Below, in pieces: positions 27,687 through 30,797 of a stretch of 37,123 nucleotides of DNA. The first letter of the stretch is position 1. Every line of letters starts with the position of its first letter. A model generated the notes under the pieces. That model ran no database searches. It was given only the letters and a program-made list of their open reading frames with translations, and was not told where the DNA came from. Made by a program: the position numbers and the translations under genes. The stretch is from Lachnospiraceae bacterium (GTDB lineage Bacteria; Bacillota; Clostridia; Lachnospirales; Lachnospiraceae). The DNA lies in the NCBI GenBank assembly GCA_017551665.1, contig JAFZLB010000065.1, positions 1 through 37,123 on the forward strand, given 5' to 3'.

Positions 27687-29243
27687 TCATTCCTTCAATT
27701 CATACGGGTTGACGCCTTCCTCGAAACCGCGTCCGCCGCGTACCGCGTCAAAGTATCCCTCCGGCAGGCCGAAGTATGCCGCCGCGAGATCATAGCCGGA
27801 GGTGCCGCTGGATTGTACCCGGACCTTCAGCGTTTCGCCGATCTGTGTCATCGTGACATCATCCAGCAGCACTTCCTCGCCCGCACGCAGCACGGTGGAC
27901 GGAAGAAAGAGGCTTTCTCCCAGCGGTTTGCCTTCTAATTGCCGGAGGATGTCGCCGCCGGTCAGAAGACCCGCCACCGTAATATGCTCCCCGAAGAAAT
28001 CGTTGCGGATCGGATACAGATGTACGCGTCTTTGCGGTGCGAGCGCCGCCGCCTCCGAAAAGAGCGCAAGCAGTACCGGATAAAACAAAACGCCCGTGAC
28101 AAGCGATATTTCGTTTTCGGATACACGGATATCCGAAACAATATCATCGTCCGATTCGGTCAATATTTGCAGCGCATCGCGAAATTCTTCCATCATCAGG
28201 CGGGTCATGCCGACGCCGTTTTCCAGCTGGGGATAGCCTTCGTAGTCTTCCTCCGGCGGGATGACAGAGTTGACCAGTTCGGTCATGTTCGCCCCTTCGA
28301 CAAGATTTTCCAGTTCCTCCCGCACGGCCAGCAGATACCACTCATCTCCCGGATGAATCAGGCGGGTGCCGCGCAGTCGGAGCGCCTCTTCCTGAAAGGC
28401 ATGAATCTGCCGCAAGACCTCACGCGCGTCCTGCGGCGTAAAGGGCTCCAGCGGATACAGCTTCTCCCGGTGTTTTGTGATGCCGACCGGCACCACGGAA
28501 ACGGACACTAACCCGGGCGCGTAATCGTTCAATAAATCCCGCATCGTGCGGTCCAGCTCCGCCCCGTCGTTCAGCCCCTTGCAGAGCACAATCTGTCCGT
28601 TCAGTTCAATGCCCGTGCCCTCCGCCGCCAGCCGTTTTGCCTTTTCCAGCGCCTCGCCGGCCTTCGGATGGCGGAGCATTTTGCAGCGCAATTCCGGATT
28701 CGTTGTATGAAAACTCACGTTGATCGGGGAAAGATGATATTCTAAAATGCGGTCGATCTCGCTGTCCGTCAGGTTCGTCAGCGTGACGTAATTGCCCTGC
28801 AAAAACGAAAGACGCGCGTCGTCATCCTTGAAATACAGCGTCTTGCGCATCCCCTTCGGCATCTGGTCAATGAAGCAGAAGACGCAGCCGTTGCAGCAGG
28901 AGCGGTAATCGTCCATGAGGCCGCGCTCGAAGGAAATCCCCAGGTCTTCAAACGCGTCCTTCTCAATCTCCAGTTCCCATTCCTCACCCGGCAGGACATC
29001 TTCCTCGCCGTCCGGCAGCGCTCCCGCCGCACTTCCCTGCGCTCCCGCAGTCCCGCAGCCCTTGCGAATCAGAACAAGAATCTCTTCCTGCTGGCAGGCC
29101 ATGCGGTAATCGAAAATATCGCGGATGTCCTTTCCGTTGACCGAAAGCAGCACGTCCCCCGCTTCGATGCCCATCTCTTCCGCAATGGAACCGGCGTCCA
29201 CGCCGCTGATGATATGCTCTTTTCCCTGCGTCCGTTCTGTCAT
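27687..29243 (-). CDS. DUF512 protein with PDZ and radical-SAM-like domains
   Basis: The 518-residue protein starts with a PDZ-like domain (GVDAGSIAEEMGIEAGDVLL, residues about 12-50), has a cysteine motif CNGCVFC (117, 120, 123) resembling a radical SAM iron-sulfur site, and ends with the DUF512 domain (VTGVLFYPVL, DDVTMTQIGETLKVR). Members sit widely in clostridial genomes; function unknown. It is about 70 residues longer than usual. One extra block is residues 61-87 (Gly/Ala-rich, GTAGAQGSAAGALPDG), a second around 310-335. It overlaps queH by 4 bp. The ATG has no Shine-Dalgarno site and lies only 7 nt after a -10 box, so the message may be leaderless. Confidence 0.85.
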   Translation of the reverse strand: MTERTQGKEHIISGVDAGSIAEEMGIEAGDVLLSVNGKDIRDIFDYRMACQQEEILVLIRKGCGTAGAQGSAAGALPDGEEDVLPGEEWELEIEKDAFEDLGISFERGLMDDYRSCCNGCVFCFIDQMPKGMRKTLYFKDDDARLSFLQGNYVTLTNLTDSEIDRILEYHLSPINVSFHTTNPELRCKMLRHPKAGEALEKAKRLAAEGTGIELNGQIVLCKGLNDGAELDRTMRDLLNDYAPGLVSVSVVPVGITKHREKLYPLEPFTPQDAREVLRQIHAFQEEALRLRGTRLIHPGDEWYLLAVREELENLVEGANMTELVNSVIPPEEDYEGYPQLENGVGMTRLMMEEFRDALQILTESDDDIVSDIRVSENEISLVTGVLFYPVLLALFSEAAALAPQRRVHLYPIRNDFFGEHITVAGLLTGGDILRQLEGKPLGESLFLPSTVLRAGEEVLLDDVTMTQIGETLKVRVQSSGTSGYDLAAAYFGLPEGYFDAVRGGRGFEEGVNPYELKE

Positions 29244-29250
29244 GTCATCT

Positions 29251-29259
29251 ATTGTACCA
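29251..29259 (-). promoter_or_regulatory. Extended -10 promoter directly before the DUF512 gene
   Basis: The minus strand reads TGGTACAAT, and the 12-nt CTGTGGTACAAT equals that before argS. The last -10 base is 7 nt before the ATG, so transcription would start at or next to the start codon. Confidence 0.5.
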
Positions 29260-29284
29260 CAGGCCTCTCCCGCCCGCTATCCGC

Positions 29285-29682
29285 ACAAGCAGAAGGGGCG
29301 TCAGCTTCAAAAGCAAACGCCCCTTCTAGAACTCTTTGTCCAACGGACCATACCTCCATGTTTTCCTGACTCTCCTTCTACCCGCCGCATCCTGTCGTCT
29401 CATCCGTATGTGGAGTCCGGCGAAAAGTCCATGCTTGGATGGCTGCCGAGTTTTCCTCCCGCTGTGATGTCTTAGGCATCCGGGTCGTCATAATTTGTGG
29501 ATCGGTTGTGGTGATTCAGTTGTTTTTCGGACCGTACCTTCCTTTCTGAACCGCCGGGCTTTCTCTTCGCCCCTTGATCCGTCTTTTTGGGGACCCGCTC
29601 CTATGTAAAGTCTTGCGTTCCTTACTCCCTGCGGTTTCCCCCGGTACCTTTTCGCCGGTACCGTGTTTCTCTCTCTTGATTT
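29285..29682 (-). ncRNA. Unassigned structured noncoding RNA, about 400 nt
   Basis: The longest gene-free stretch of the window (29244-29810) holds a transcript-like sequence downstream of a perfect promoter (29689-29717). It begins with a CGGTACC/GGTACCG hairpin with a GGCGAAAA loop (about 29640-29665), contains many GA- and GAAA-rich connectors between short GC stems (for example CCAT/ATGG near 29425-29440), and ends in the long hairpin at 29291-29327. No convincing ribosome site with a coding frame is present. I do not find the conserved cores of RNase P, tmRNA (no T-arm or tag frame), SRP RNA (no GGAAGGNAGCAG) or T-box leaders. The family is unknown; a raiA-type or 6S-type RNA cannot be excluded by eye. 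Confidence 0.65.
29291..29327 (-). terminator. 11-bp perfect stem-loop at the 3' end of the RNA
   Basis: AGAAGGGGCGT pairs perfectly with ACGCCCCTTCT across a 15-nt loop that itself holds a GCTT/AAGC pair. On the minus strand GCTTGTGC follows, with few T residues, so termination may be weak or the hairpin may be a stable 3' end. Reading into the DUF512 gene, whose ATG is 48 bp further, is also possible. Confidence 0.5.
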
Positions 29683-29688
29683 ACTGTC

Positions 29689-29717
29689 ATTATACGCTTG
29701 CGTTTTAAATTTGTCAA
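29689..29717 (-). promoter_or_regulatory. Consensus sigma-70-type promoter of the unassigned RNA
   Basis: On the minus strand TTGACA (29712-29717) and TATAAT (29689-29694) are separated by exactly 17 bp. The 40 bp upstream are almost pure A/T, like an UP element. It is the only promoter in the window with both boxes at full consensus. Confidence 0.9.
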
Positions 29718-29738
29718 TATACTTTTTGATAATTTTAA

Positions 29739-29753
29739 AATATTCAGAATATT
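29739..29753. promoter_or_regulatory. 15-bp perfect palindrome upstream of the RNA promoter
   Basis: AATATTC-A-GAATATT lies 22 bp upstream of the -35 box. It could be a regulator site or simply part of the AT-rich UP region; no family can be named. Confidence 0.4.
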
Positions 29754-29810
29754 CTCCCATTTTCGCACACTTGCATCTTTGCGTTTATCATGCGAAACAC
29801 CTCAAACCCT

Positions 29811-30797
29811 TTATTTTTGGCGTCTTTTGATAAATGTCTGGTTCAGTCCCGGCTGCGTTTCATGCTCCACATCGCGGATGTCCAGCACGTCCGAAAACTC
29901 ATCGATGAAGCTGCGCAGCTTCTTCGTGGGGAAGCCGTAGTTGCGCGGATCAAAGCCCGGAATCCTGCGGCCGAGCTGCATGCCGATGTTGGAGAGAATG
30001 ACCTCGTCCTCTTCGCGGCTGTCAATGATGTCCAGGATGGTCTCGATGACTTTCTTGCGCGAGGCCACATCCGCCTGGGCTTCCGCGTCCGCGTTTTCGT
30101 TTTCGTTTTCGGCACTCTCCGCCTCAAACAGTTCCGCGCTCTCGGTCTCCTGCACTTCCGCTTCCTGCGCGGCCTGTGTCTTGCGGCTCCGCTTCGCGGG
30201 CTGTTTCCTCGCCTTTGCGCTGCCGGCGTTCTTCTTCTCCTCCGCCTTGCCGTCCGCGTCCTTTGCCTCCGTCTCCGCGTCGGCGCCCTTGTCCTTGTAC
30301 AAGAGATTCAGCCACTTGAACTCCCGGCAGGCGGCGGCCAGCGAAAAGGTCGCGTTGTTGACCTCGCCCATGCCGATCACCATCTTGCCGCCTTCGCGCA
30401 GACGGATGGCGAGCTTCGTGAAATCACCGTCCGAAGATACAATGCAGAAGGCGTCCACGTCCCCGGTATGCAGAATGTCCATCGCGTCGATGATCATCGC
30501 GGAATCCGTGGAGGATTTTCCGCGGGAATTGTTTTCCTGATAGGCCGGCGCCAGCGCGAAGGTGCGCATGGCCTCCCGCCATCCCTTCACCTTCCAGACC
30601 TCGTTGTTGCCGTAGACTCTGCGGTAGGTCGCGAAGCCGAATTCGCTCAGCTCCTCCATGATCGTACGCGCGTATTTTGCCGGAACGTTCTCCGCGTCAA
30701 TCAAAAGCGCGATGCGGAGATTGCCGTTCATGGGCACGTCCTCCGCCACGTTCAGCATGGCCTGCACGGCATCGTTTCTTGTTTTACTCTTACTCAT
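29811..30797 (-). CDS. NYN domain (PIN-like) protein with C-terminal OST-HTH/LOTUS domain
   Basis: This 328-residue protein joins a LabA/DUF88-type NYN nuclease-like domain (residues about 20-170) to an Ala/Glu/Lys-rich linker (about 175-240) and an OST-HTH/LOTUS domain (about 245-315, VILSNIGMQLGRRIPGFDPR). The NYN acidic residues are in place: LLIDAENV near 27-34, TDSAMIIDAMD and IVSSDGDFTKLAIRL. NYN domains resemble RNA-cleaving PIN domains and OST-HTH domains bind RNA, so an RNA-processing role is likely but not shown. The ATG has AAAGGA 5 nt upstream. It is 12 bp after asd in the argH-asd unit and directly precedes the unassigned RNA on the same strand. Confidence 0.88.
   Translation of the reverse strand: MSKSKTRNDAVQAMLNVAEDVPMNGNLRIALLIDAENVPAKYARTIMEELSEFGFATYRRVYGNNEVWKVKGWREAMRTFALAPAYQENNSRGKSSTDSAMIIDAMDILHTGDVDAFCIVSSDGDFTKLAIRLREGGKMVIGMGEVNNATFSLAAACREFKWLNLLYKDKGADAETEAKDADGKAEEKKNAGSAKARKQPAKRSRKTQAAQEAEVQETESAELFEAESAENENENADAEAQADVASRKKVIETILDIIDSREEDEVILSNIGMQLGRRIPGFDPRNYGFPTKKLRSFIDEFSDVLDIRDVEHETQPGLNQTFIKRRQK

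Follow-up and report, generated by a model that had tools for sequence, protein, structure and literature searches.

A module-built noncoding RNA of Lachnospiraceae and other Clostridia that may serve as a decoy or platform for the translation initiation machinery

The locus and its predicted transcript

The window analysed here is a stretch of 37,123 nt from a Lachnospiraceae bacterium (assembly GCA_017551665.1, contig JAFZLB010000065.1, positions 1 to 37,123 of the forward strand). It contains a gene-free gap at 29244-29810, and the predicted gap length of 567 bp was confirmed by measuring between the start of a DUF512 gene at 29243 and the stop of an NYN gene at 29811. On the minus strand of this gap, a -35 hexamer TTGACA (29712-29717) and a -10 hexamer TATAAT (29689-29694) are separated by a 17-nt spacer. 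The -35 hexamer is also present in 14 homologs cut out from genomes of the genus, and both hexamers and their spacing are identical in the two close relatives G435 and G440. Promoter-like sites with at least nine of twelve consensus matches occur seven times in 1.8 kb, compared to a mean of 0.6 in shuffled sequences; the site at 29717-29689 is the only one in 1.8 kb with twelve of twelve matches, and the perfect promoter of the original prediction is thus borne out. It is preceded by an A/T-rich stretch (29718-29760, minus strand), which had been read as an UP element and which contains long invariant runs in all three members of the clade. Promoter and A/T-rich stretch are well kept across the clade, with a joint identity of 88.3% to G435 and 83.6% to G440.

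The predicted noncoding RNA comprises about 390 nt (29291-29682, minus strand), as judged from conservation, folding and a match to the sequence model R2 described below, and its presumed start lies 7 nt past the -10 box. A stem-loop is found at the position of a terminator (29291-29327, minus strand); it consists of two 17-nt arms, which are 88% complementary, and the 11-bp stem noted earlier at the 3' end forms its uninterrupted base. Where a U-run would be expected after this stem, the window reads GCUUGUGCGG; in G440, seven consecutive U start eight nucleotides past the corresponding stem. A search of the 2.57-Mb source genome found the RNA sequence once. The NYN gene directly upstream of the RNA (29811-30797) carries an OST-HTH/LOTUS domain, and by sequence likeness an NYN gene occupies the same position in G435; it is conceivable that this protein binds RNA.

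The transcript had been proposed to be structured, and its minimum free energy of -134.1 kcal/mol indeed lies below that of 100 shuffled sequences (-113.6 kcal/mol, standard deviation 5.7; z -3.63). The GGTACC hairpin expected at the 5' end was located at 29642-29663 (minus strand) by a motif scan and by folding, where CGGUACC pairs with GGUACCG. Inspection by eye revealed that in G440 this hairpin has one pair replaced on both sides and lacks the outermost pair, and that one pair has become U-G in G435. A second 5' helix at 29589-29641 (minus strand), in which GGGGG pairs with UCCCC around an inner CCGC/GCGG, is found in both the minimum free energy fold and the consensus of three sequences; two outer pairs are altered on both sides in G440 (by eye). 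The loop region of the 5' hairpin (29648-29658) is perfectly complementary over 11 nt to a downstream stretch (29417-29427). A conserved pseudoknot formed by these segments was considered and dropped: eight nucleotides are retained in G435 and the complementarity is absent from G440 (by eye).

An ORF of 90 amino acids overlaps the RNA region. It is unlikely to be coding, as Pfam returned no match for it and the clade members differ by several indels whose lengths are not divisible by three, and a comparison of the clade revealed no conserved ORF in the gap. In all likelihood, the locus holds a genuine noncoding RNA gene with a strong promoter, and the family to which this RNA belongs is absent from Rfam.

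Relation to known RNA classes

A scan of the window against Rfam 15 at gathering thresholds returned no match to a known class, so the novelty of the RNA withstood this check, and a scan of the gap at E values up to 10 yielded four sub-threshold matches that resemble chance hits. In 28 loci of relatives scanned at E<=1, all matches above gathering (tRNA, Gut-1 and Clostridiales-1) lie outside the RNA. Hallmarks of RNase P, tmRNA and SRP RNA had been described as missing, in agreement with the Rfam results: the RNase P RNA of the genome (RF00010, G000:C112:32004-32357, 309 bits) and its 6S RNA (RF00013, G000:C28:11534-11763, 51.8 bits) are located on other contigs, which rejects both identities, and neither tmRNA nor SRP RNA scored over the cut-off at the RNA locus.

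Two known RNAs were encountered beside homologs. Clostridiales-1 RNA (RF01699, 97.5 bits) adjoins the homolog L119, where it occupies positions 2046-2200, beginning where the terminator stem ends; it is regarded as a separate, dispersed element because similar sequence recurs downstream. At L163:1988-2178 (G839), a tRNA gene and a Gut-1 RNA (RF01706) are found shortly past the RNA.

The ROOL, GOLLD, OLE and raiA families are included in Rfam. Like these (PMC12286853), the RNA described here is a large conserved bacterial noncoding RNA of a class whose function was not known when it was discovered; unlike them, it has no Rfam match and is composed of modules of variable copy number. Passages of PMC6344614, PMC8040213 and PMC3997798 make no mention of the module RNA, and no description of it was found in the titles and abstract openings that were searched; a candidate may be listed in supplementary tables. 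The RNA family is new to Rfam, and RNAs that are built from repeats and act as decoys or platforms are a known kind, a function which we infer here.

Distribution and genomic context

A BLAST search of 79 genomes of the genus gave clear matches in G435 (91% over 441 nt) and G440 (74% over 280 nt) and short matches with E values of 0.005 or worse in six further genomes. An exact-pattern search of genome contigs retrieved two stretches, which are the same two relatives. Aligned globally, the RNA is 91.8% identical to that of G435 and 73.1% identical to that of G440; at third codon positions, the DUF512 gene is 54% and 46% identical, respectively, and the NYN gene 70% identical to G435. A first pattern search of 397 genomes of the family, allowing three mismatches, yielded six matches beyond the window, which were judged by eye to be due to chance. 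The initial idea that the RNA is absent from the family at large was overturned by later sequence models.

The first of these, R1, is a sequence-only model of the three clade members and matched 25 of the 79 genus genomes at E<=0.1, eleven of which agree in matching model positions 114-329 or 114-330; the loci that were read contain TTGACA promoters, a repeated motif and a terminator-like stem. R2 was built from 14 R1 matches and contains no member of the window clade; L083, which is coding by eye, and the weaker remainder were excluded. At E<=0.01, R2 detects the RNA in 72 of the 79 genus genomes and in all 47 good ones (completeness of 90% or more, contamination of 5% or less), and the seven genomes missed are 60-88% complete. 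Applied to the window, R2 matches 29333-29550 with 22.4 bits (E 7.2e-5), a region that covers a repeat unit and the last copy of the module described below, which places the RNA of the window in the same family. The window clade is tied to the other RNAs of the genus by weak scores of this kind (22-27 bits) and by a common layout in which promoter, unit and last copy are followed by the 3' stem. Of the 397 genomes drawn from the family, 86 are matched by R2 at E<=0.01, 40 of them at E<=1e-4, with about 4 of 397 expected by chance at 0.01 and E values that are rough. Two to four R2 matches lie side by side at several family loci, and three weak BLAST matches (G319, G272 and G011) fall inside homologs found by R2. 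A third model, R3, describes the unit itself, and its training units include that of the window (29514-29550); at E<=0.01, it matched 40 of 391 genomes of the class, among them eight of family handle f21 and four of f53. No matches were obtained in viral contigs with three patterns, nor in plasmids and phages. Judged by sequence similarity, the family extends across Lachnospiraceae into other families of Clostridia, and the RNA is almost certainly a conserved functional one.

The RNA is flanked by NYN and DUF512 genes in the window. Its neighbours in G435 are NYN, RidA-like and TrpS-like ORFs (by eye) and the RNA is located 2.2 kb from DUF512; G440 has a different neighbour gene, and RNA and DUF512 are on separate contigs. 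A comparison of gaps between NYN and DUF512 genes, which had been suggested as a check, would have been of little use: among the relatives read, the NYN neighbour is kept in G435 alone, and the RNA lies between NYN and DUF512 in none. Among 22 genus loci compared, a serine hydroxymethyltransferase (SHMT) gene is located upstream in 16 and a gene for a GH3-domain protein downstream in 19; the basal genus member L193 has both. The RNA lies between these two genes at most of the genus loci compared (L098, L128-L157, L193). Nine family and class loci have no neighbours in common. Since the neighbouring genes differ, the RNA very probably acts in trans.

The repeated module

RNAs of the family contain a unit of about 40 nt, which consists of a Shine-Dalgarno (SD)-like block and the core GGUAYRGWCC and is present in one to about ten copies, the last of which, close to the 3' stem, is a variant. 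The original prediction of an unassigned structured ncRNA holds as far as the lack of an Rfam class, conservation and covariation are concerned; the build from repeated modules, however, was overlooked. For a gapless alignment, units were filtered by pattern with at most four per locus, and 79 of 90 were aligned (set A5); the 11 excluded by hand were a chance match in L122 and last-copy or similar units. The alignment reads approximately GAAAG-RN-AGGUAYRGWCC-A-NNN-RRNNN-URR; the invariance of its core columns is due in part to the selection of units with the core pattern. One earlier unit collection likewise required the core pattern and excluded last copies. Tandem units are often 46-76 nt apart, and nine to ten are present in G044. 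The window has one unit plus the last copy, and the 32 aligned genus members have two plus the last copy.

The unit of the window (GAAAGGAAGGUACGGUCC..., 29514-29550, minus strand) has its core at 29529-29538 and a UGA at the position of the family URR. It is matched by R3, which contains this unit, and independently by R2 as part of 29333-29550. The last-copy unit (GGAGGUAUGGUCC-GUU-GGAC, 29336-29360, minus strand) was recognized because it shares a 12-nt direct repeat (D3) with the first unit, and it includes a GUCC/GGAC hairpin at 29338-29348.

Outside Lachnospiraceae, one or two modules are located shortly past a TATAMT-like box (by eye), and a strict TTGACA pattern found no promoter at the loci read there. 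These modules stand at the beginning of another long RNA, which has its own conserved blocks and may be the ancestral form. Many of the loci L161, L163, L165, L169, L172, L182 and L183 share blocks such as ACACGRCGGUGU...AUAUAGA, AAAUUCGCC and AAGAGAGGAUAAC (by eye), and the five of these that were scanned have no Rfam match.

Covariation of the folded domain

Of the 72 genus genomes matched, 32 entered the covariation analysis; L184 was excluded as the same genome as L151. Across the four helices, 97.2% of cells are paired compared to 91.9% in shuffled alignments, 39 cells are altered on both sides compared to 15.3, and the covariation score is 0.221 compared to 0.136; none of 500 shuffles reached any of these values. 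When the partner is slid by one to three columns, pairing falls to 23-36%, and this control carries more weight because relatedness may inflate the other covariation measures. The changes on both sides sit in only four pairs of three helices; in the clearest case, 16 sequences have A-U and the other 16 have G-C. The number of pairs with such a change does not exceed the shuffles (4 vs 2.7; 88 of 500 as high), nor does the number of further pair types (10 vs 10.4). Helix 4, the GUCC/GGAC hairpin of the last copy, is paired in 97.7% of cells and has one-sided changes only. The check by covariation proposed earlier thus revealed compensatory changes in three of the four helices. Ahead of the first unit lies a 5' hairpin that occurs in three base versions, as found by a longest-complement search run with no control. 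A helix enclosing the unit appeared plausible at first and was discarded, as it has no covariation support, and RNAalifold on 17 or 36 sequences including the window clade added little.

Likeness of the modules to ribosome binding sites

The duplex calculations used the standard anti-SD sequence of the 16S rRNA 3' end, not one read from the source genome. The duplex energy is -10.7 kcal/mol for 38 units with AUG (-5.9 in shuffles) and -12.7 kcal/mol for 106 units without AUG (-6.8 in shuffles). All 144 usable units (of 150 rows of set A6) lie below their own shuffle mean, which is consistent with STAB-SD-like complementarity for 30S binding, a shuffled G-rich block being a mild control for SD likeness.

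Stop codons were counted in 175 of 209 unit rows (8 without core; 152 unique), and the rows excluded by eye were weak ones, some last copies and four places outside such an RNA (L176, L181, L185 and L186). Among the 49 unique units with AUG, 48 have an in-frame stop within eight codons, 43 of them at codon 3 or 4, and UAA, UAG and UGA are all in use; by the same point, the next frame has reached a stop in 28 units (in 25 of them through the UGA contained in AUGA) and the third frame in three. All 15 unique units counted outside Lachnospiraceae, which derive from 14 of 22 fetched loci, have an AUG followed by a stop at codon 3 or 4 (UAA 12, UGA 2, UAG 1); L182 and L183 read alike and missed the core pattern. 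Twelve more AUG-stop units are found by eye in five basal genus members, whose last copies with AUG have no early stop (by eye). These AUG units look like a translation start with an immediate stop.

The remaining 103 of the 152 unique units contain CCR, AAG or other codons instead of AUG at this position. The frame of the absent AUG nevertheless has a stop within eight codons in 97 of these 103, compared to 47 and 55 in the other frames, a regularity that is explained by neither decoy nor translation models. No AUG is present at the usual place in the modules of the 32 aligned genus members (by eye) or of the window; thus, translation is not needed there.

A search of the 79 genus genomes for the full motif with AUG gave 16 matches, eight inside and eight outside the RNA, compared to 21 for the reversed control; the expectation that the full motif with AUG recurs in other transcripts was thus not borne out in the genus. 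Five of the eight matches outside precede ORFs, two of them being the same gene in two genomes. At L176 (G793) 1501-1540, an iron-containing alcohol dehydrogenase gene uses the module as its ribosome binding site (E 1.4e-5). A motif match is also carried by an HPr-like gene in G436, and in the source genome, an AMP-binding enzyme gene (L194, C47:73899-73913) begins with AGAGGTACAGACCTATG, the sole match to AGGTAYRGWCCNATG in that genome; the latter two matches may be due to chance.

A putative decoy or platform and its alternatives

The explanation favoured here is that the RNA is an independently transcribed, trans-acting structured RNA and the local member of a family found in Lachnospiraceae and beyond. 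Its working part would be the module of about 40 nt, i.e., a purine-rich block that can pair with the 16S rRNA 3' terminus, GGUAYRGWCC, an AUG (or CCR or AAG) and a stop-like URR two codons on. The RNA would present one or more of these modules, in the genus together with a folded 3' domain, and the modules would dock either initiating 30S subunits or a protein that recognizes initiation regions. As a multi-site decoy or platform, the RNA could then shift the free amount of the bound partner. This reading fits the promoter of its own, the copies that mimic initiation sites, the folded body and the lack of a fixed neighbour, and its overall probability is about even. The same even standing is given to the binding of the modules to the initiation machinery or one of its proteins; titration as the outcome is rather doubtful. 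Capture of the initiation machinery is favoured over other partners with modest confidence.

Two known systems are instructive. CsrB, CsrC and RsmZ are sponge RNAs with many copies of GGA in hairpin loops. The module RNA resembles them in being a transcript of its own with many copies of a short motif that resembles an initiation region; where those RNAs have GGA in hairpin loops, the module RNA has GGUAYRGWCC downstream of an SD block. STAB-SD elements of Bacillus mRNAs were reportedly described by Agaisse and Lereclus in 1996. By analogy, the GAAAGGAGG-like block could bind 30S subunits while no protein is produced, and in the form found outside Lachnospiraceae it is located near the 5' end as well; unlike STAB-SD elements, it is repeated, has a conserved core and frame-fixed AUG and stop positions, and resides in a separate RNA.

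The alternative that survives best, although it is considered unlikely, is a Csr/Rsm-like sponge, which would titrate a putative RNA-binding protein that reads GGUAYRGWCC away from mRNAs. The variable number of tandem modules, the core that is better kept than the SD block (the core being also the search pattern), the promoter of its own and the varied context would all agree with such a sponge, as would the alcohol dehydrogenase mRNA of G793 and the other motif matches that precede ORFs. However, the full motif with AUG shows no excess outside the RNA (8 matches vs 21 in the control), and there is no candidate protein. CsrA is an unlikely partner because many units are devoid of GGA (by eye). 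GGA exceeds mononucleotide shuffles at p<0.05 in two of 17 homologs (window, 0.036; G435, 0.014), and this weak enrichment, together with its absence from many units, makes a GGA-type Csr sponge appear less likely.

Arrays of start-stop minigenes are improbable. Here, ribosomes would initiate at AUG modules and terminate after one to three residues, thereby tuning the supply of ribosomes or tRNAs or blocking 5' decay like STAB-SD elements. The early stops in all units counted outside Lachnospiraceae and in the twelve of basal members, as well as the SD complementarity, would be expected from such arrays, but the majority of unique units contain no AUG, the AUG last copies of basal members lack an early stop, and the conserved spacer is left unexplained. 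An equally low probability is assigned to a base-pairing regulator or RNA sponge acting via the SD-like purine-rich stretches: these repeats could pair with CU-rich RNAs, but the degenerate Y, R and W positions of the core disfavour pairing with a single target.

A cis-acting 5' leader of the DUF512 gene is very unlikely. RNA and gene are on the same strand, only about 47 bp separate the 3' stem from the DUF512 start, and there is no U-run in the window; this idea is largely refuted because the genomic context differs, as the RNA precedes a RidA-like ORF 2.2 kb away in G435 (by eye), lies on a different contig from DUF512 in G440 and adjoins SHMT and GH3 genes at most compared genus loci, so that a conserved position before DUF512 is not found. 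A divergent housekeeping RNA (RNase P, tmRNA, 6S or SRP RNA) or a coding gene, for which size, promoter strength and the overlapping 90-aa ORF could be cited, has a negligible probability, given RNase P (300-309 bits) and 6S RNA (52-61 bits) elsewhere in all three clade genomes, the lack of Rfam and Pfam matches and the non-triplet indels.

Implications

The RNA occurs in every one of the 47 good genus genomes and in a portion of those searched from the family and class, and yet has no model in Rfam 15. The sequence of the module and its variation in copy number make the decoy idea readily testable. It is tempting to speculate, though only tentatively, that the family is a Clostridia-wide class of RNAs which imitate translation starts, ancestrally with an AUG and an immediate stop, and which act as a tunable ribosome trap or landing platform. 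If true, such a ribosome trap would be a kind of RNA of its own, a ribosome-directed counterpart of CsrB and 6S RNA and a housekeeping decoy aimed at translation rather than at a regulator or RNA polymerase. If the initiation machinery is titrated by the modules, translation in a large group of anaerobes would be under a global control that has gone unmodelled.
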